Assembly (NCBI GenBank): GCA_018666805.1
Contig: JABIXB010000039.1
Location: forward strand, 1-39,009
Reading direction: 5' to 3'
Length of the DNA: 39,009 bases
Source: Rhodospirillaceae bacterium
GTDB taxonomy: Bacteria > Pseudomonadota > Alphaproteobacteria > UBA828
The first letter of the stretch is position 1. Every line of letters begins with the position of its first letter. Shown here piece by piece: positions 9,448 through 17,280 of the stretch. The notes below the pieces were generated by a model that worked only from the letters and a program-made list of their open reading frames with translations, was not told the DNA's origin and searched no databases. The position numbers and the translations under genes are program-made.

Positions 9448-9635
9448 TTGCGGTCTTCAGGCGCCAGAAGGGCGGCGACGGAGTCATGAAGCGTGGCCAG
9501 ATGATCGCCCGAGACAAGGCGGAAAAATCTCCGTGCCCGTCAACGATTTTATAATAAATATATGTTTAGATAGTCCAACTACCCTGAAACGCCTACGACA
9601 CAATTCGCAATATGCAATAATATGCTGGATTGATT
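9448..9635. other. AT-rich spacer upstream of the 95-aa gene
   Basis: The last stretch (about 9540-9635) is clearly richer in A+T than the rest of the window. It contains a TATAAT at 9550-9555 with no convincing -35 partner. A 22-codon reading frame (9486-9554, starting MKRGQMIARDKA after a GGAG) is visible, but it is too short to support as a gene. The region may hold the promoter of the next gene or be a remnant of something lost. Confidence 0.4.
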
Positions 9636-9923
9636 ATGTCAAATATAATAGCATTTCCAAGCAGCGGCCTAACCGAACAGGACCGGCAGGAAGTCGTGTC
9701 GCTGGCCTATCAGCTTCAGCTCAAGGGCGCGGCCCAGGGCTGGATCACCGGTGAGACGATGCACGGCCATGTCTGGATGGCCATATTGGATGCGCGCAAG
9801 ACGGATGCGAGCCTGGCGGTAATCGCCCGCGAGGAAGGCCAGTATGTCGCTTTTTGCGACGACGGCTCCGCCCTCGCCCATGGTCCCAACCTGAGCGAAG
9901 TCCTGTCGACAATCTCGGCCTGA
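9636..9923 (+). CDS. Small soluble protein of unknown function
   Basis: A 95-residue protein from ATG 9636; an in-frame TTG two codons earlier is the less likely start. It has no signal peptide or membrane segment. It starts MSNIIAFPSSGLTEQD and has a regular alternation of helix- and strand-like stretches (EVVSLAYQLQLKGAAQGW, then WMAILDARKTDASLAVIARE, then EGQYVAFCDDGSAL). This is consistent with a small alpha/beta fold. I do not recognise the family. Codon use looks coding and in keeping with the genome even though the 5' flank is AT-rich. It is convergent with the DUF1641 gene, 15 bases away. Confidence 0.65.
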   Translation: MSNIIAFPSSGLTEQDRQEVVSLAYQLQLKGAAQGWITGETMHGHVWMAILDARKTDASLAVIAREEGQYVAFCDDGSALAHGPNLSEVLSTISA

Positions 9924-9938: not shown

Positions 9939-10457
9939 TTAGCCCAACTCCGACTTGCGTAAATTCTCAGCCAGTGTGCGCAGAAACACGATCGAGGACT
10001 GCGTCTTCGGGTCGCCGAGCATTTTTAGCGTTGCCATGATGCCGCCGGGCGCCTGGTAGTCGGCTGATTCGCGCACCGCTTCGTTGACCGCTTCCTTGGC
10101 GGCATGGGCGAGGTCGGCGATTTCCTCGTTGGCGAGGTTGGTCAACATATGTTCGACGAACTGGGCCAGGCGCTCGACCATGCTGTCGGTCATGGCGTTG
10201 CGCATGGCGCTGATCATGTGGATCAGCTCGAAGGTTGCCTTGAGGCCGCCGGTGCGGTGCAGCGCCGTCAATTCGTCGAGCAGGCTGTGCACCGCGTCGC
10301 GCGTGTCCTCATCATTGAGGCGATCGAGAAGTTCCATGCCGTTGCCGAGGGTGGCGCTCAGGCGGCCGACCATCTGGTCGGTCATGGCGTCGCCGGCGGC
10401 CGCGATCAGGCGGTCGAGTTCTTCCGGCGCGTTGGGCCGGCTATCGATATCGCTCAT
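9939..10457 (-). CDS. DUF1641 family protein
   Basis: A 172-residue, mainly helical, soluble protein from ATG 10457, which has a purine-rich site upstream. It overlaps nothing, but follows the flavoprotein gene by only 13 bases. The sequence has the repeated pattern seen in DUF1641 proteins: MSDIDSRPNAPEELDRL at the start, paired helices with AMTDQMVGRLSATLGN and AMTDSMVERLAQFVEH, and a Gly-rich end (QAPGGIMATLKMLGDP). DUF1641 genes are often found next to SQR-like flavoproteins and formate-dehydrogenase-type clusters; the biochemical role is not established. Here it is the last gene of a sulfur-relay module. Confidence 0.8.
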   Translation of the reverse strand: MSDIDSRPNAPEELDRLIAAAGDAMTDQMVGRLSATLGNGMELLDRLNDEDTRDAVHSLLDELTALHRTGGLKATFELIHMISAMRNAMTDSMVERLAQFVEHMLTNLANEEIADLAHAAKEAVNEAVRESADYQAPGGIMATLKMLGDPKTQSSIVFLRTLAENLRKSELG

Positions 10458-10470
10458 CTTCTGGCCCCCC

Positions 10471-11610
10471 CTACAGCAAGCCGCGCGCCGACAACCAATA
10501 GAGCCGGTTGTAGGCAAGTTTCGACCAATGGATCATCTTCGACGGCGGGCCCGGATTGGGCGGCGTTTCATAGTTGAACCAGACATAGGTGGCGCTATCC
10601 ATGCCGGTTTCGACAAAGCAGAACACCTTGCCGTCATAGGGCCGCGCGGTGCGGCCCTCGAGCACCAGCGAGGTCAGATTGTCGATCAAGGTATCGGCTT
10701 CGTAATGGGCGGTCGAGCCGGCCTTGGAGATCGGGATATTGGTGGTGTCGCCGACGACGAAAACATTGCTCGAGCCCTCGCGGTTGAGCGAATGGCGGTC
10801 GGTCGGCACCCAGCCGCCGGCGCCGAGATCGGAGGCCTCGATCACTTCGGCGCCACGGTGCGGCGGGATCGTCACCAAGAGGTCGTAGGGCAGGGTTGAG
10901 CCTTCTTCCGATTCGATCGTCTTGGCCGCCGGGTCGACCGATTTGGCGTTGAAGAAAGTCTCGGATTTGATGCCGTATTTATCGAACTCGGCGCTGGTCC
11001 AATGGGCCACCGGTTCAAGCGCGTGCAGCCGGCCAATCGGATAGGTGTAGGTAATTTCGGTTTTGTCGGCGAGGCCGCGCTTTTGCAAATGGTGATAGAG
11101 CATGAAGCTGATTTCGAGCGGCGCCACCGGGCATTTATGCGGCGCGTTGACATTGACGACGATCTTGCCGCCGTCGAAATCTTCAAGTGCCTGGCGCATT
11201 TTGCGCGCGCCGTCGAGATCGTAGAACCAGTGCGCGCCCTCGGCCATGCCGGGGATCTCTTCGGGCACGATGCGCGAGCCGGTGGCGATGACGAGATAAT
11301 CATAGCCGAAGCTCATACCGGCATGGGTTTCGACCCTGTTGTTTTCGACATCGATATTGCTCGCCGGGTCGACGAAGAAATTAACGCGCCGGTCGAGCAC
11401 CTTGCGTTGATCGCGAAACAGCTCGTCCTCGCGCATGGTGCCAAACGGGATGTACAACAGGCCCGGCTGATACATGTGCTGGTCCGTCGTGCCGAGCATG
11501 GTGATCGAGACCTCGCCCTTGCCGAGCGCACTGCCGAGCTGGCGGCAAAGGCCGTTTGCGGTGATCGTGCCGGCCAGTCCGCCGCCGACAATCAATATGC
11601 GTTTGCTCAT
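10471..11610 (-). CDS. SQR-like FAD/NAD(P)-dependent oxidoreductase
   Basis: Flavoprotein of 379 residues related to sulfide:quinone oxidoreductases. The N-terminal dinucleotide fold ILIVGGGLAGT (5-15), the second motif YLVIATGSRIVPEEIPG (about 105-121) and the FAD-closing VFVVGDTTNIP (283-293) are present. Cysteines at 160 (in APHKCPVAPLE) and 331 (in GKVFCFVETG) sit at positions like the redox pair of SQR and flavocytochrome c. The C-terminus (MIHWSKLAYNRLYWL) could be an amphipathic membrane-binding helix. A frame extension upstream to 11772 would overlap the TusA gene, so ATG 11610 with GGGAGA is preferred. Encoded after dsrE-like and tusA-like genes, it probably oxidises a sulfane-sulfur species; quinone or other acceptor is unproven. 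Confidence 0.9.
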   Translation of the reverse strand: MSKRILIVGGGLAGTITANGLCRQLGSALGKGEVSITMLGTTDQHMYQPGLLYIPFGTMREDELFRDQRKVLDRRVNFFVDPASNIDVENNRVETHAGMSFGYDYLVIATGSRIVPEEIPGMAEGAHWFYDLDGARKMRQALEDFDGGKIVVNVNAPHKCPVAPLEISFMLYHHLQKRGLADKTEITYTYPIGRLHALEPVAHWTSAEFDKYGIKSETFFNAKSVDPAAKTIESEEGSTLPYDLLVTIPPHRGAEVIEASDLGAGGWVPTDRHSLNREGSSNVFVVGDTTNIPISKAGSTAHYEADTLIDNLTSLVLEGRTARPYDGKVFCFVETGMDSATYVWFNYETPPNPGPPSKMIHWSKLAYNRLYWLSARGLL

Positions 11611-11635
11611 TTTTTCGTCTCCCAGCCTGTAATTG

Positions 11636-11863
11636 TTATTTCGACTTGATGATGCGAATGCTCCAATAGCCGTCCTGTTCGGTGGTTTCGCCCATTTGAT
11701 GGCCGACCTTGGCGATCCATTCGGGAATGTCCTTGACCGAGCCCTGATCGGACGACCAGATCTCGATTTCATCGCCGATGCTGATCAGTTTGAGCCCGGC
11801 GATCAGCTCCAACAACGGTCCCGGGCAATAGGAGCCGCGCGCATCGATGGTTGTTGTGCTCAT
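11636..11863 (-). CDS. TusA-like sulfur carrier protein
   Basis: A 75-residue TusA/SirA/YeeD fold protein that carries persulfide sulfur on a single cysteine. The diagnostic motif is YCPGPLLEL, with the CPGP at residues 13-16 (Cys13). The rest (GDEIEIWSSDQGSVKDIPEWIAK) follows the two-layer fold's strand-helix order. It lies 21 bases after the DsrE-like gene and 25 before the SQR-like flavoprotein, suggesting that sulfur is passed among these three. It is not the housekeeping tRNA-thiolation TusA by context. Confidence 0.93.
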   Translation of the reverse strand: MSTTTIDARGSYCPGPLLELIAGLKLISIGDEIEIWSSDQGSVKDIPEWIAKVGHQMGETTEQDGYWSIRIIKSK

Positions 11864-11884
11864 AGGTGCGGTTTTTCTTTCGGT

Positions 11885-12283
11885 TTAGAGAACGATCAAT
11901 TCGCCGGCCTCGGCGTCGGACATGAATTTGGTCAGGCCGCCGGCCTCGTCGAACAGGCCGTCCTCAAGATCGGCCAGGGTCCATTCCTGGATGTCGAGCG
12001 CCATCGAGCAGGCGATGATTGTTAGATCGCCGAGCATCTTGCCCTGGCGCAAGAGCTCGAGCGCATCGGGTGCGCCTTTTTTCAACATCTCGGCGGAAAA
12101 GGCGCCGCCCCGGTAGCGCGCCTCGGCGTTCAAGCCTTTGGCAAACACCAGGATCGCCGCCATGCTGACAAAAAGCTGGGTCGGCCGTTCGGAAACGGCG
12201 GCGACCGAAGCCATCATGCCGGCAAGCTGCACCTTCTCATGCTCGGGTGAGGCCAAAACAATAAATAGTGGTGCAGCCGCCAT
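11885..12283 (-). CDS. DsrE/DsrF-like (DsrE2-type) sulfurtransferase
   Basis: A 132-residue DsrE-family protein with an N-terminal beta strand (APLFIVLASPE), a hydrophobic middle helix region (LFVSMAAILVFAKGL) and the cysteine motif LTIIACSMALDIQEW, where Cys92 is the likely persulfide carrier. This looks like the DsrE2/peroxiredoxin-like branch more than TusD. It is the first gene of the DsrE-TusA-flavoprotein-DUF1641 unit. The upstream 258 bases separate it from the RND genes. DsrE-TusA pairs are known sulfur trafficking partners in sulfur oxidisers and in other bacteria. Confidence 0.88.
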   Translation of the reverse strand: MAAAPLFIVLASPEHEKVQLAGMMASVAAVSERPTQLFVSMAAILVFAKGLNAEARYRGGAFSAEMLKKGAPDALELLRQGKMLGDLTIIACSMALDIQEWTLADLEDGLFDEAGGLTKFMSDAEAGELIVL

Positions 12284-12541
12284 ACCAACGTTCCCGGGGA
12301 AGCCAGAAATATAGCCATGATCATTTAGCAGATAATCGCCGGCTAATCACCCCATCCATTCGCTATGAGGTGTGCGGAATTGTCGGCGTCCGGTGTCGCC
12401 TACGCTATGATGCGGGCGCGGCGGCAAGCGGCCGGGCGCCGCCATGATCGCGTAAAAATCCACTGGATTACAAAATAATACCAGTTTTATTGTTTTAAAT
12501 TAGGGGGTTAATATTTTTACTTGTCTGGACCGGAACAGCAA
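12284..12541. other. Intergenic region between RND pump and sulfur module
   Basis: No gene is supported. The part next to the RND stop (about 12465-12530) is AT-rich, and the middle has GC-rich self-complementary sequence (GGCGGC..GCCGCC, about 12420-12443) without a T-run. It must hold the promoter of the sulfur module, but I could not pick convincing -35/-10 boxes. Confidence 0.5.
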
Positions 12542-15500
12542 TTAATCGGTGGAGACCTCAACCGCTGCCTGTTCGCGTGCTTCGGTCTTGGTCGGGCCCG
12601 TGCGCGGTTTGCGCGCCAGCACCGTCATCATCGGCGGAATGATCAAGAGGGTGAGAAGGGCGGATAGCGCCAAACCACCGACCACCACCGAACCGAGACC
12701 ACGATAGAGTTCCGAGCCGGCGCCCGGGAACAGCACCAGTGGCAACATGCCGACAACTGAGGTGACGGTCGACATGAAGATCGGCCGGATGCGGTTGCGC
12801 GTTGCTTCCAAAATGGCTTCCTGGACCTCCATATCGTCGCTCCGCATGTGGTGCAGAGTCTGATGCACCAGGAGAATCGCATTGTTGACGACGATGCCGA
12901 TCAGGATGACGAAGCCCAGCACCGTCAACATGTCGAGCGGCTGGAAGCGGTCGATATTGATCAGCAACAGGCCAAGCACGCCGCCGGCCGCCGCCGTCGG
13001 CACCGAAAGCATGATGATGAACGGGTAGATAAAACTTTCGAACAGCACCGCCATGATGAGATAGACGATAAATATCGCGAGCACGAGATTGAGCACCATC
13101 GCGTCCCAGGTCTTGGTCAACTGATCCGCCGTGCCCGAAAGGTGCATCGAGACACCGGGCGGTAGATCGCCCGCCAGCGCGCCGATGACGCTTTCCTCGA
13201 GCGTCTGCATGGCGACTTCGAGCGGCACTGCCGCGGCTGGGCGGATTTCCAGGGTGACGGTGCGTTCGCGCTCGACATGGCGGATCAGCGTCGGCCCTTC
13301 AGTGACGATGATATCGGCCAGCGCGCCGACCGGCAGAATAGTGCCGTCGCGCGTCACCACCGGTAGGAAATTAATGTCCTGGGTTTGGCCGACGGCCTGC
13401 TCGGGGCCGGTCAACATTAGATCGAAGCGCTTGCCGCCGATGGTGATCTCGTCAACGCGCAGACCATCATTGAAAGCATCGACCGTGAGGCCGAGCTCGA
13501 GCGCATTCAGGCCGTTATCGCCTAGGAGGACCTGGTTGGGAACGATGCGCACTTCCGGCGCGCCGAGCTCGAGCCCCGGCACCGGGCGCATCTGGTTGCC
13601 TTCGGAGAACGGCATCGCCATGAAGAGATGCCCAACCGCGCTCACCGCGACTTCAAGAATGGTCTCCAGATCGGGGCCGGAAATATCGAGGTCGATCTTG
13701 CGCCCGCCGCCGATGGCGCGGCCAAACAGGCTGGTCTGGCTGACGAAACCGAAAGTACCGGGCTCGCGGAACACCGGGATGCGGATCGGGTCAATGAGCT
13801 CGCCGGCGCGCTGCGGCTCCATTGAAACAGCGCCGACAAAAGCGCGCGAACGCAAGGTGACGAAGAAGAAGCGCTCCATCTTGGGCGGTCCGCCGGGCTC
13901 GGATACCGGCCCGGTTTCGGTTGCCCAGAGCGGGCGCACCGCGTTCTCGATGCGCTTGGCAATGCCGCTGGTGGTATCCAAATTATAGCCTGGCGGCGGC
14001 ACCACCACGCCAAACACGAGATTGCGGTTGCCCTCCGGCAGATAGTCGAGCTTGGGCAGGAATTGATATGAAAAATAAAGCGAGCCGCCGCAGACAAGGA
14101 TCACCACCGCGATGGCGCGCAGGCGCCCGCGCACAACCCAGCGCGTAAAACCCATCACCACAGCGACGAAAGCGCGGGCAAAGTGATCGATGATCGGAAT
14201 TGGCAAACGGCGCGGCGCTTCGAGCACATTGCCGGCACTCGTCTTTGAGCGGCCAAGAATGCGCGCGGCGAGCGACGGGATGAGAGTGATGGCGATGACC
14301 AGCGACAGCAGCACCGAGACCGAAATGGCGACGGCGATATCGCGGAATAGCTGGCCGGCCTCCAACTCCATGATCAATATCGGAATAAACACCAATACCG
14401 TGGTCAGAGCCGAGACGAACACCGCGCCCCACACCTGGCGCGCGCCCTGATAGGCGGCCTCGCGGCGCGTGAGGCCGGATTGCCGCAATCGGTAGATATT
14501 CTCGAGCACGACAATGGCGGCATCGACCACCATGCCGACGGCGAAGGCGAAGCCGGCGAGCGACACCACATTGATCGACCGGCCGAGCAGCGCCATGGCG
14601 ACGAACGAGCCGACCACCGATACCGGTATCGCGATAGCGATAATTATCGTGGCGCCGAAAGAGCGCAGGAACAACATCAGGATAATGACGGCGAGGGTGC
14701 CGCCGACCCAAATATTCTGCTGCACCAATTCGATTGCCGAATCGATATAGACGGTCTCGTCATAGGCTTGCTCAAGCGTCAGCAGCGCGTCGGGCAACAC
14801 CCTTTCATTAAGCTCGGCGACGGCCTGGCGCACGCCTTCCATGGTCTCCATCACATTGGCGCCGGTCTCGCGGATGGCGTTGACCGCCATCGCCGGCTCA
14901 CCCAGGGTGCGAATGCGCGCGACCGGATCCTTGTAGCCGAAATGGACCTCGCCGATATCGCCCAGCGTCACACGCGCAAGGCGCCCGGAGGCACTGTTTT
15001 CGGCGCTCCGCAGCAGCACCGCGCGCACCCGCTCGGGGGTTTTGAGCTCGGCATCGGTGCGCACGATGTAGCGCCGCTTGCCTTCGTTCAAATCGCCGGC
15101 GGAGATCGATGTATTGGCGCCCTGTAGCGCGCTCACCACATCGCGCACCGTGAGGCCGTAGCGCGCCATCTTTTTGGGATCCACCGTGATCCGCAATTCG
15201 CGCTCGGAACCGCCGAACACATTGACCCGGGCGACGCCCGGCACGCGCTCGATGCGTTCCTTGATCGTATCTTCGATAAAATCGCCATATTCGTGAATCG
15301 GGCGAATATTGCCTTCGACACGCTGGATGATGAACCAGGCGATGGCTTGGTCCTCGGCGCTCGCGGTGCGGATCGTTGGCTCGTCGGTTTCCTCCGGATA
15401 GCCCGACACGCGGTCGAGGCTGTTGGCGACAAGCAGCAGTGCGCGGTCCATATTATGGCCGACTTTGAATTCAAGCGTGATCTCGGAGCTGTTGTCCTGC

Positions 15501-15751
15501 GATTGGCTGACCATGCGCGACAGGCCCTCAAGGCCCTTCAGCACCTCTTCCTGGCGGTTGGTCACTTCGCGCTCGACCTCGGCCGGTGCGGCGCCAAACC
15601 AATTGGTGGTGATGGTGAGCACCGGTTTGCGCACATCGGGCGTAAGCTGAATCGGGATGGTCTGGAGCGCTACCAGGCCGAACAGGAGAATCATCAGCAC
15701 CGCCGCGATCATGGCGATCGGCCGCGCAATGGCGAGGCGGATAAGATTCAT
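12542..15751 (-). CDS. RND efflux pump inner-membrane subunit (AcrB/HAE1-like)
   Basis: Proton-driven multidrug-type RND transporter of 1069 residues, a normal length. It starts MNLIRLAIARPIAMIAAVLM, typical of the first membrane helix. The fourth-helix motif FAVGMVVDAAIVVLENIYR keeps the first aspartate of the AcrB DD pair but has alanine at the second. In the tenth helix (VILIGIVVNNAILLVHQ) the AcrB lysine is replaced by asparagine. Such variants occur widely in RND branches and do not imply loss of function, though proton coupling residues differ from AcrB. The adaptor gene's stop codon is immediately followed by this ATG. No TolC-type outer-membrane factor is nearby. Substrate is unknown. 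Confidence 0.95.
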   Translation of the reverse strand: MNLIRLAIARPIAMIAAVLMILLFGLVALQTIPIQLTPDVRKPVLTITTNWFGAAPAEVEREVTNRQEEVLKGLEGLSRMVSQSQDNSSEITLEFKVGHNMDRALLLVANSLDRVSGYPEETDEPTIRTASAEDQAIAWFIIQRVEGNIRPIHEYGDFIEDTIKERIERVPGVARVNVFGGSERELRITVDPKKMARYGLTVRDVVSALQGANTSISAGDLNEGKRRYIVRTDAELKTPERVRAVLLRSAENSASGRLARVTLGDIGEVHFGYKDPVARIRTLGEPAMAVNAIRETGANVMETMEGVRQAVAELNERVLPDALLTLEQAYDETVYIDSAIELVQQNIWVGGTLAVIILMLFLRSFGATIIIAIAIPVSVVGSFVAMALLGRSINVVSLAGFAFAVGMVVDAAIVVLENIYRLRQSGLTRREAAYQGARQVWGAVFVSALTTVLVFIPILIMELEAGQLFRDIAVAISVSVLLSLVIAITLIPSLAARILGRSKTSAGNVLEAPRRLPIPIIDHFARAFVAVVMGFTRWVVRGRLRAIAVVILVCGGSLYFSYQFLPKLDYLPEGNRNLVFGVVVPPPGYNLDTTSGIAKRIENAVRPLWATETGPVSEPGGPPKMERFFFVTLRSRAFVGAVSMEPQRAGELIDPIRIPVFREPGTFGFVSQTSLFGRAIGGGRKIDLDISGPDLETILEVAVSAVGHLFMAMPFSEGNQMRPVPGLELGAPEVRIVPNQVLLGDNGLNALELGLTVDAFNDGLRVDEITIGGKRFDLMLTGPEQAVGQTQDINFLPVVTRDGTILPVGALADIIVTEGPTLIRHVERERTVTLEIRPAAAVPLEVAMQTLEESVIGALAGDLPPGVSMHLSGTADQLTKTWDAMVLNLVLAIFIVYLIMAVLFESFIYPFIIMLSVPTAAAGGVLGLLLINIDRFQPLDMLTVLGFVILIGIVVNNAILLVHQTLHHMRSDDMEVQEAILEATRNRIRPIFMSTVTSVVGMLPLVLFPGAGSELYRGLGSVVVGGLALSALLTLLIIPPMMTVLARKPRTGPTKTEAREQAAVEVSTD

Positions 15752-16864
15752 TTACGAGCCGTCGGCAACCGTGACGGCCTGGCCGGGCCGGAGGCGCTCA
15801 TTGCCGCGAATCACGGCCAAATCGCCGGGCGCCACGCCGCTGATCACCTCAAAGCGCCCGCCGACCGCGGCACCGGTCTGCACCGGGCGGATATCGGCCT
15901 TGCCGTCGGCGGCGAGGTAAACGAAGGTCTGTCCCTGGCGCGTTATCACCGCATCCTTATGCACCGTCACCACTTCGCGGTAGGGCCCTTGCGGCAAATG
16001 CACCACGACTGACTGGTTGACCGCGAGAACGCGGCCATTGAGGGCGATGTCGGGGGTGAAACGTACCTGACGGGTGCGGGTGAGGGGGTTCTCCTCCGGC
16101 ACGATGGCGCGCACCACGGCTTGATGATCCGAGCCGTCATCGAGCGTAATCGTAATCACCACGCCGGCCTCCAGGGCCGGGATGCGGGTGGCTGGAACAT
16201 CGGCCTCTATTTCGAGTTTGCGGTCGCTCAGCATGGACACCACCGAGCCGCCAACCGGCACGTACGAGCCGGTCTCGGTATGCTCAAGCGTGACCACCCC
16301 GCCATAAGGCGCGCGGACCTTGGCGTCGTAGAGATCGATCTCGGCCAGGGCGAGATTGGCCAGCGCGCGCTCATTGCGCGCCATGGCGGCGCCGACCGAG
16401 GTTTGCGCCACCACCACCTGCTGGCGCTGGTCTTCGTGCCGGCCCTTGGAAAAGGCGACCGAATTCTTAAGCCCCTCAAGGCGCGCCAACTCCTGGCGGC
16501 GCAGCGTCAATTGCGCTTCGGCCAGCCTGATTTGCGCTTCGGTTTCGGCCGCTTCGGCGACCAACAGGGCGCGCTGGCGCTCAAGACGGGCGGTATCCAA
16601 TAGGGCGAGTACATCGCCTTTCTGAACCCGGTCGCCAACGCTGACCCGCATATCGGCCACCGGGCCACCAATACGGGCGGCAACGATGCCGGATTGGCGC
16701 GCGACCAGCCGGCCAATCACCGGAACGGTTTGTGACAAGGGCTCCATGCGCACTTCATCGACGCCGACCGCCGCCGCTTGCTGGGCCAGGGCGCCGGGCG
16801 TGCCGGGCAGTGCCAGCGGTAGCGTGAGTGCCAACATTGCCGCCATTATCAGGCGCGTCATCAT
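15752..16864 (-). CDS. RND periplasmic adaptor (membrane fusion protein)
   Basis: HlyD/AcrA-type adaptor of 370 residues linking the RND pump to an outer-membrane channel. It has an N-terminal signal peptide (MMTRLIMAAMLALTLPLAL, cleavage near ALAQQ). A lipoyl-like half follows (VGDRVQKGDVLALLDT), then an alpha-helical hairpin rich in Ala, Glu and Arg (about residues 105-175). Next come the returning lipoyl half (VRAPYGGVVTLEHTETGSYVPVG) and a beta-barrel region. No lipobox cysteine is seen, so it is probably soluble or held by its partner. Start ATG 16864 overlaps the NUDIX gene's TGA as ATGA, and the pump follows with no gap. Confidence 0.94.
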   Translation of the reverse strand: MMTRLIMAAMLALTLPLALPGTPGALAQQAAAVGVDEVRMEPLSQTVPVIGRLVARQSGIVAARIGGPVADMRVSVGDRVQKGDVLALLDTARLERQRALLVAEAAETEAQIRLAEAQLTLRRQELARLEGLKNSVAFSKGRHEDQRQQVVVAQTSVGAAMARNERALANLALAEIDLYDAKVRAPYGGVVTLEHTETGSYVPVGGSVVSMLSDRKLEIEADVPATRIPALEAGVVITITLDDGSDHQAVVRAIVPEENPLTRTRQVRFTPDIALNGRVLAVNQSVVVHLPQGPYREVVTVHKDAVITRQGQTFVYLAADGKADIRPVQTGAAVGGRFEVISGVAPGDLAVIRGNERLRPGQAVTVADGS

Positions 16865-17280
16865 GCTGCACCCTCACCTTGAAGGGCGCGTTTGAGCGCG
16901 AGAATTTCGGGCGCGGCCATGCGGCCGCTCTCTATTGCTGTATCGGGTTCCATGAATATCAACTCGATGGTTTCGTGGTCCGGTGTCCGCGGTTCGCCCT
17001 CGCCATGCACTCTATAATAGAGCGGGGTGTATTCGCTATGTGTCCACGGACTGAATAAAGTGCCGGGAACGTGTAGCAGATAAGCGGGTGTTACCGCCAG
17101 ATTTCCTTCTTCGATAAATTCGCGCACAAGTGCCAACTCCGGCGTTTCACCGGCCTCAACCGCGCCGCCGGGGAATTTGAGGATATCCCGGCCAACAATC
17201 GTTTCGGCCGACATCAGCACCCGCCCGGCGCGCAACAACACGCCATAGACGCGTACATTATTTGGCTGGTTCTGCAACAT
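16861..17280 (-). CDS. NUDIX hydrolase
   Basis: A 139-residue NUDIX-fold pyrophosphohydrolase. The NUDIX box is seen as GGAVEAGETPELALVREFIEEGNL (about residues 38-61), read in parts: G-x5-E then REF-x-EE. The glycine expected two residues after EE is asparagine, and a glycine sits one earlier, so the box is slightly off consensus. The metal-binding glutamates remain. Substrate is not predictable. It is the first gene of a three-gene unit with the RND adaptor and pump (4-base overlap), an unusual partner. The 150-base gap upstream is divergent with acoX. Confidence 0.88.
   Translation of the reverse strand: MLQNQPNNVRVYGVLLRAGRVLMSAETIVGRDILKFPGGAVEAGETPELALVREFIEEGNLAVTPAYLLHVPGTLFSPWTHSEYTPLYYRVHGEGEPRTPDHETIELIFMEPDTAIESGRMAAPEILALKRALQGEGAA

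Follow-up and report, generated by a model that had tools for sequence, protein, structure and literature searches.

What function unites a pair of sulfur carriers with a flavoprotein and a helical DUF1641 protein is the question raised by four genes in a 39,009-nucleotide stretch, here called the window, of a Rhodospirillaceae bacterium (GenBank assembly GCA_018666805.1, contig JABIXB010000039.1). Reading head to tail, with 21, 25, and 13 bases between them, the genes encode a DsrE-family sulfurtransferase, a TusA-family sulfur carrier, a flavin adenine dinucleotide (FAD) oxidoreductase resembling sulfide:quinone oxidoreductase (SQR), and the DUF1641 protein (Table 1). An initial annotation, made from the DNA letters, had described four closely packed genes on one strand. 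All four open reading frames (ORFs) were recovered where it had placed them, and the cysteine positions it gave (Cys92 of DsrE, Cys13 of TusA, Cys160 and Cys331 of the flavoprotein) are exact. We propose, with a probability of roughly 0.58, that the module is a cytoplasmic sulfide-oxidizing unit of SQR type, for which DUF1641 would provide the link to quinone, and that its sulfur would be handed through TusA and DsrE to the sHdr or rDsr pathway.

Scanned against contigs, a five-flavoprotein profile found 48 loci, or 49 with the window. In 49/49 the gene immediately before that of the flavoprotein encodes TusA (median gap 72), and in 47 of these dsrE precedes tusA (median gap 26); immediately after the flavoprotein gene, with a median gap of 12, comes a DUF gene in every one of the 47 loci that are not truncated there by the end of the contig. 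The module occurs in Alphaproteobacteria (Rhodospirillales, the magnetotactic Paramagnetospirillum, Terasakiella and Magnetovibrio, and Hyphomicrobiales), in Betaproteobacteria (Gallionella), and in Gammaproteobacteria (Thiogranum, Thiothrix), with identity falling to 55%. A plasmid search found the order TusA-FAD-DUF1641 in the haloarchaea Haloarcula, Halobaculum, Halomicrobium, Halopiger, and Halobellus, whose flavoproteins show 43-47% identity, and Chlorohelix (Chloroflexota) has a TusA gene immediately ahead of the FAD gene. In Haloarcula sinaiiensis the third gene of the set is annotated as hypothetical, and in Halobellus limi a second FAD-DUF1641 pair, with a longer DUF protein, stands right behind the three-gene set. 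The gene order is thus kept far past close relatives, across three proteobacterial classes and, less DsrE, in haloarchaea. Because order and cysteines are kept in dozens of genomes, the four-gene module is not a chance arrangement.

In a maximum-likelihood tree, the flavoproteins of Proteobacteria, haloarchaea, and Chlorohelix form one clade (support 100/98) together with FAD-DUF1641 copies from plasmid pKLC102 and from Natrialba, and those from proteobacterial four-gene loci form one group (95/87). No SQR homologue outside the clade has a TusA neighbor, and only two, both haloarchaeal, have DUF1641. Neighborhoods of the distant SQR homologues L014-L018 and L022 were examined for TusA and DUF1641 and contained neither; the arrangement with TusA is therefore confined to one clade.

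The flavoprotein matches Pyr_redox_2 (4.1e-14), and its best NCBIfam match, nearly full length, is NF049943, the selenoprotein subtype of type III SQR, at 342.9 bits with the cut-off of 525 not reached; where that subtype has selenocysteine, the window protein has cysteine. By this similarity alone it appears to be type III-like. Human SQOR is retrieved at E 4.7e-94 by a profile built from 53 homologues, which aligns Cys160 and Cys331 with the SQOR cysteines of motifs KCAGAP and YDGYTSC. Both residues are invariant across the 53 aligned homologues, distant ones included. Cys160 is present in 60/60 homologues and Cys331 in 59/59 that are long enough, while Cys22 is unconserved. Haloarchaeal and Chlorohelix flavoproteins retain equivalents of both. 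The only DUF1641-linked homologue seen to have lost one is the distant pKLC102 copy, in which Cys331 has become Ala and Cys160 is retained; it lies among conjugative-element genes and probably carries out a different reaction. The two flavoprotein cysteines singled out by the initial annotation are, accordingly, invariant wherever the four-gene arrangement or its haloarchaeal counterpart occurs.

An AlphaFold model of the flavoprotein (predicted local distance difference test score 92.9, predicted template modeling score, pTM, 0.90) has the full-length fold of SQR and flavocytochrome c sulfide dehydrogenase. In VIA comparison it superimposes on human SQOR (8dhk_B) with Z 46.0 over 373 residues at a root-mean-square deviation of 2.3; human SQOR is the best relative in the Protein Data Bank (PDB) both by sequence and by fold. 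SQRs of A. ferrooxidans and Aquifex follow at Z 43, flavocytochrome c at 40-41, and NDH-2 at about 38, with persulfide reductases much lower. As for the membrane-binding C-terminal segment of canonical SQR, the model has a C-terminal helix (358-375), but the protein stops at a point corresponding to human SQOR residue 435 and to about residue 411 of the A. ferrooxidans enzyme, some 15-25 residues short of where those two finish. The idea that a large C-terminal truncation had been replaced by DUF1641 is weakened by the small size of this shortfall. A Rossmann strand begins at residue 3 of the model, and no signal peptide is apparent, so the enzyme is expected in the cytoplasm alongside TusA and DsrE.

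These comparisons also bear on whether the flavoprotein might be NAD(P)H-linked, resembling NDH-2 or a persulfide or CoA-disulfide reductase, and use TusA persulfide as electron acceptor. The next relatives in fold are indeed NDH-2 enzymes, and the YjlC/YjlD pair combines a DUF1641 protein with an NDH-2. However, NDH-2 scores far below SQR and persulfide reductases lower still, and both the cysteine pair and the sequence context are SQR-like. We regard an NAD(P)H-linked activity as very improbable.

The two carriers belong to their families with differing clarity. TusA has the CPGP motif and matches PF01206 at 5.6e-20 (71.4 bits against a cut-off of 28.6), and its Cys13 is kept in 67/67 homologues. 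DsrE Cys92 is kept in 61/61. Membership of the DsrE superfamily is supported by this cysteine and by all 26 relatives, which match DsrE_2 (PF13686) at E up to 0.01, although the window protein itself falls below threshold (5.4e-4, 20.4 bits against 25). The initial label of DsrE2-like is a loose one: the protein scores 22.4 bits against the DsrE2 equivalog NF047629 (cut-off 210), and it shares only about 20% identity with a canonical DsrE2 encoded elsewhere in its genome. That other DsrE2 belongs to an sHdr-linked set, whose TusA has CPLP in place of CPGP. With module TusA 25-35% and module DsrE about 20% identical to their sHdr-linked counterparts, the module proteins represent separate subfamilies. 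In one of the two loci with no DsrE (L013), the place upstream of TusA is taken by a gene that by eye resembles OsmC; its genome, which also holds L060, has neither dsrA nor sHdrB2.

The DUF1641 label could not be read from the window copy: searched alone against Pfam and NCBIfam, the protein gave no PF07849 match and nothing useful, and a PF07849 search of its own genome gave no match even at E 10. Rejection of the label on the latter ground would have been wrong, as homologues show. With E values allowed up to 1, 33/44 of them match PF07849 (the best at 2.8e-8), and hhalign aligns the module DUF family to haloarchaeal homologues, mostly annotated as DUF1641, with probability 98.7 and E 2.6e-16. 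The label therefore probably holds, through the family. By eye, these proteins contain repeats of about 60 residues built on the motif DALTDEMVGRL, usually two, with one in Thiothrix and three in a betaproteobacterium.

Searched against the PDB, a profile of 44 module DUF proteins finds YjlC (1.8e-6), an entry named "NDH-2 membrane coupling protein" (2.5e-6), and ForE1 (5.1e-5). The haloarchaeal DUF1641 profile finds ForE1 (3.3e-4) and, weakly, the membrane-associated subunit HucM of Huc hydrogenase (7uus_Q, 0.0021), hinting that DUF1641 and HucM are one family. Single-sequence phmmer searches with the window, pKLC102, and Haloarcula proteins found no true PDB relative where profiles succeeded. 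Foldseek and VIA searches with the DUF model found nothing, and because that model is weak (pTM 0.33), these empty searches say nothing about fold novelty. YjlC is believed to dock NDH-2 at the membrane for quinone reduction, and ForE to do likewise for formate dehydrogenase. The initial guess that the DUF1641 protein is a membrane-docking partner thus gains support from solved homologues, and by this homology it would couple the flavoprotein to membrane quinone. In one report (PMC8808070), menaquinone and menadione reductase activity is lost when ForC lacks ForE, which is needed for menaquinone binding and reduction. Other reports list a DUF1641 gene in a Parageobacillus hydrogenase operon (PMC12976888) and, in Ignicoccus, a DUF1641 neighbor of an FAD oxidoreductase that is up-regulated (PMC3149612). 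On Natrialba magadii plasmid pNMAG02, a FAD-DUF1641 pair is followed immediately by cydA-cydB, encoding cytochrome bd quinol oxidase, possibly a whole sulfide-to-oxygen chain in a single operon.

Where the sulfur would go is suggested by the rest of the genome. The initial annotation saw no sox, dsrAB, or hdr genes in view and suggested that the four might be self-contained. It is true genome-wide that searches found no dsrA and no SoxB above cut-off. However, another contig, C89, carries a complete sHdr-LbpA cluster (Table 1), in which the names hdrC, hdrB1, and those of the lipoate genes come from position and sequence likeness, family-search support concerning the orthologues in L024. Among the 49 module genomes, 35 have dsrA, 15 have sHdrB2, and 46 have either, the only exceptions, with neither, being the genomes of L029, L060, and L068. 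The notion of self-containment is therefore not supported. In a sample of 386 genomes of the class, dsrA or sHdrB2 was found in 13, ten of them among the 382 that lack the module (Fisher p 1.2e-4, uncorrected for kinship, and with the window genome counted among the four that have the module). L024, the nearest relative at 89%, has right beside the module genes for TusA, DsrE2, LbpA, HdrB, and HdrA; sHdr and DsrE2-TusA genes adjoin the module in several relatives, and a second DsrE-TusA pair is close by in about ten loci. From these counts, the module predicts cytoplasmic sulfur oxidation, yet most sulfur oxidizers manage without it.

The same data speak to a second alternative, close to the initial reading, in which the module would be a self-contained unit for sulfide or persulfide homeostasis apart from dissimilatory sulfur oxidation, removing toxic sulfide and parking the sulfur on carriers for biosynthesis. 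It is favored by evidence from haloarchaea, where TusA-FAD-DUF1641 sets adjoin genes for metallo-beta-lactamase (MBL)-fold hydrolases and thioredoxins and which have, to our knowledge, no reputation as sulfur lithotrophs, and from the three module genomes that lack both markers. The contrast between 46/49 and 10/382, with the physical linkage to sHdr genes among relatives, makes such a homeostatic role quite unlikely.

Gene order, protein families, cysteine conservation, co-occurrence with rDsr/sHdr, and the homology of the DUF protein to membrane-coupling subunits are observed; from them we infer the enzyme activity, the complexes, and the way the sulfur moves, as follows. Sulfide would attack the Cys160-Cys331 bridge, so that one of the cysteines would carry a sulfane sulfur and FAD would hold two electrons. 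With the flavoprotein docked at the membrane by the DUF1641 protein, FAD would then reduce quinone. The dedicated TusA would accept the sulfane sulfur as a Cys13 persulfide and pass it to Cys92 of DsrE, which would deliver it to cytoplasmic sulfur oxidation by sHdr-LbpA in this organism or, in most other module genomes, by rDsr or sHdr. This direction is proposed because the enzyme is SQR-like and is the only SQR in its genome, a search for a second full-length SQR-family protein there having found none.

Sulfur could instead flow the other way, with imported sulfane sulfur carried on TusA and DsrE and the flavoprotein acting as a TusA-persulfide:quinone oxidoreductase that oxidizes or releases the bound persulfide. 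The haloarchaeal and Chlorohelix neighborhoods, which contain YeeE/YedE importers, rhodaneses, and additional TusA-DsrE pairs, favor such a reversal, as does the two-way TusA-DsrE transfer seen in vitro in cable bacteria (PMC13293266). Retention of both SQR cysteines, the sulfide oxidases that are the nearest solved enzymes, and the lack of another SQR-family protein in the window genome argue against it, and we consider reverse or salvage flow unlikely.

Several observations weigh against a sulfide-oxidizing unit feeding sHdr or rDsr. Transfer between TusA and DsrE runs in both directions in vitro in a related cable-bacteria system (PMC13293266), and gene content therefore cannot settle direction. 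Two loci lack DsrE. Within the class sample the module is missing from ten of the 13 genomes with rDsr/sHdr and is therefore optional. In haloarchaea and three module genomes a link to rDsr/sHdr is not obvious, so where the sulfur ends up may differ among organisms. Finally, the DUF model is poor, and the links to solved structures depend on profile E-values of about 1e-6 to 1e-3.

The surroundings of the module seem unrelated to it. On the same strand, 258 bases upstream, is an RND efflux operon (AcrB and HlyD families) with a NUDIX gene, not conserved with the module, and a convergent small ORF with a weak DUF5678 match ends 15 bases from the DUF1641 gene; judged by conservation, both operon and ORF lie outside the module. 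A scan of the locus found no sigma-70-like or promoter-like site, and terminator-like sites at chance level.

Table 1. Positions of the module genes, their surroundings, and loci from other contigs discussed in the text.
Feature	Position	Strand	Remarks
DsrE-family sulfurtransferase	window 11885..12283	(-)	132 amino acids; sole Cys92 in ACSMALD; first gene of four
TusA-family sulfur carrier	window 11636..11863	(-)	75 amino acids; sole Cys13 in CPGP motif
SQR-like FAD oxidoreductase	window 10471..11610	(-)	379 amino acids; Cys22, Cys160, Cys331
DUF1641 helical protein	window 9939..10457	(-)	172 amino acids, no Cys; proposed membrane/quinone coupling subunit
Gap between dsrE and RND efflux gene	window 12284..12541	(-)	258 bases; presumed site of promoter
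RND efflux pump, HlyD-type adaptor, NUDIX gene	window 12542-17280	(-)	upstream
Convergent small ORF	window 9630-9923		97 amino acids
sHdr-LbpA cluster, contig C89	L072:5352-18915		dsrE, hdrC1, hdrB1, hdrA, hypothetical, hdrC2, hdrB2, hypothetical, lbpA, then dsrE2, tusA, putative lipoate-assembly genes
Locus with no DsrE	L013:8509-9057		gene ahead of TusA, OsmC-like by eye
Second FAD-DUF1641 pair, Halobellus limi	L077:7879-9937		
FAD-DUF1641, plasmid pKLC102	L079:3962-5594		
FAD-DUF1641-cydA-cydB, pNMAG02	L082:3926-8256		
DUF protein with repeats	L066:7118-7486		by eye
DUF protein with repeats	L064:7032-7763		by eye
DUF protein with repeats	L068:3201-4004		by eye

How sulfide-derived sulfur is loaded onto the TusA/DsrE relays that serve sHdr and rDsr is an unsettled matter, for which a conserved SQR-TusA-DsrE block offers a direct and testable link. 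We advance more tentatively the broader proposal of an undescribed, cross-domain sulfide oxidase: a cytoplasm-facing SQR with a dedicated TusA, rather than glutathione or polysulfide, as obligatory acceptor, and with DUF1641 required for quinone. Were this true, DUF1641 would have a concrete role as a general quinone-coupling subunit uniting respiratory dehydrogenases of various kinds, common to NDH-2 (YjlC), formate dehydrogenase (ForE), Huc hydrogenase (HucM), and the present SQR.

Each part comes from a known family, and the combination appears undescribed in the open-access literature searched, which included subscription papers sparsely and bioRxiv not at all; there, neither passages on DUF1641 nor searches for SQR alongside TusA/DsrE revealed a cluster of this kind. 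With SQR and SQOR, and type III in particular, the module enzyme shares its whole-length fold, FAD domain, catalytic cysteine pair, and full-length NF049943 match; in cable bacteria the type III enzyme relies on Cys159 and Cys339 (PMC13047784). The SQR homologues L014-L018 and L022 have no TusA and DUF1641 of their own, whereas the module flavoprotein always has TusA, and has DUF1641 in all testable four-gene loci. YjlC-YjlD likewise joins a flavoprotein quinone reductase of related fold to a DUF1641-type helical partner, but YjlD is an NADH dehydrogenase and the pair has no sulfur carriers. In the ForCE formate:menaquinone oxidoreductase (PMC8808070), the DUF1641 subunit ForE is needed to couple a cytoplasmic enzyme to menaquinone, but catalysis there is by a molybdenum enzyme, which has no relation to SQR. 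The sHdr-LbpA and rDsr systems with their DsrE/TusA relays, represented in the window genome by DsrE2-TusA-LbpA-sHdr, co-occur with the module and use carriers of other subfamilies. Closest in proposed route is the YTD cluster (DsrEFH type II) of cable bacteria, with sulfide passing through SQR, TusA, and DsrE to DsrC (PMC13293266). Models of type III SQR conflict over its orientation, toward the periplasm or toward the cytoplasm (PMC13047784, PMC13293266). In cable bacteria the tusA-dsrE cluster does not include the SQR gene, and inward transport of polysulfide by a transporter has been postulated, whereas here SQR, TusA, and DsrE form a single gene block, an arrangement that fits a cytoplasm-facing enzyme.

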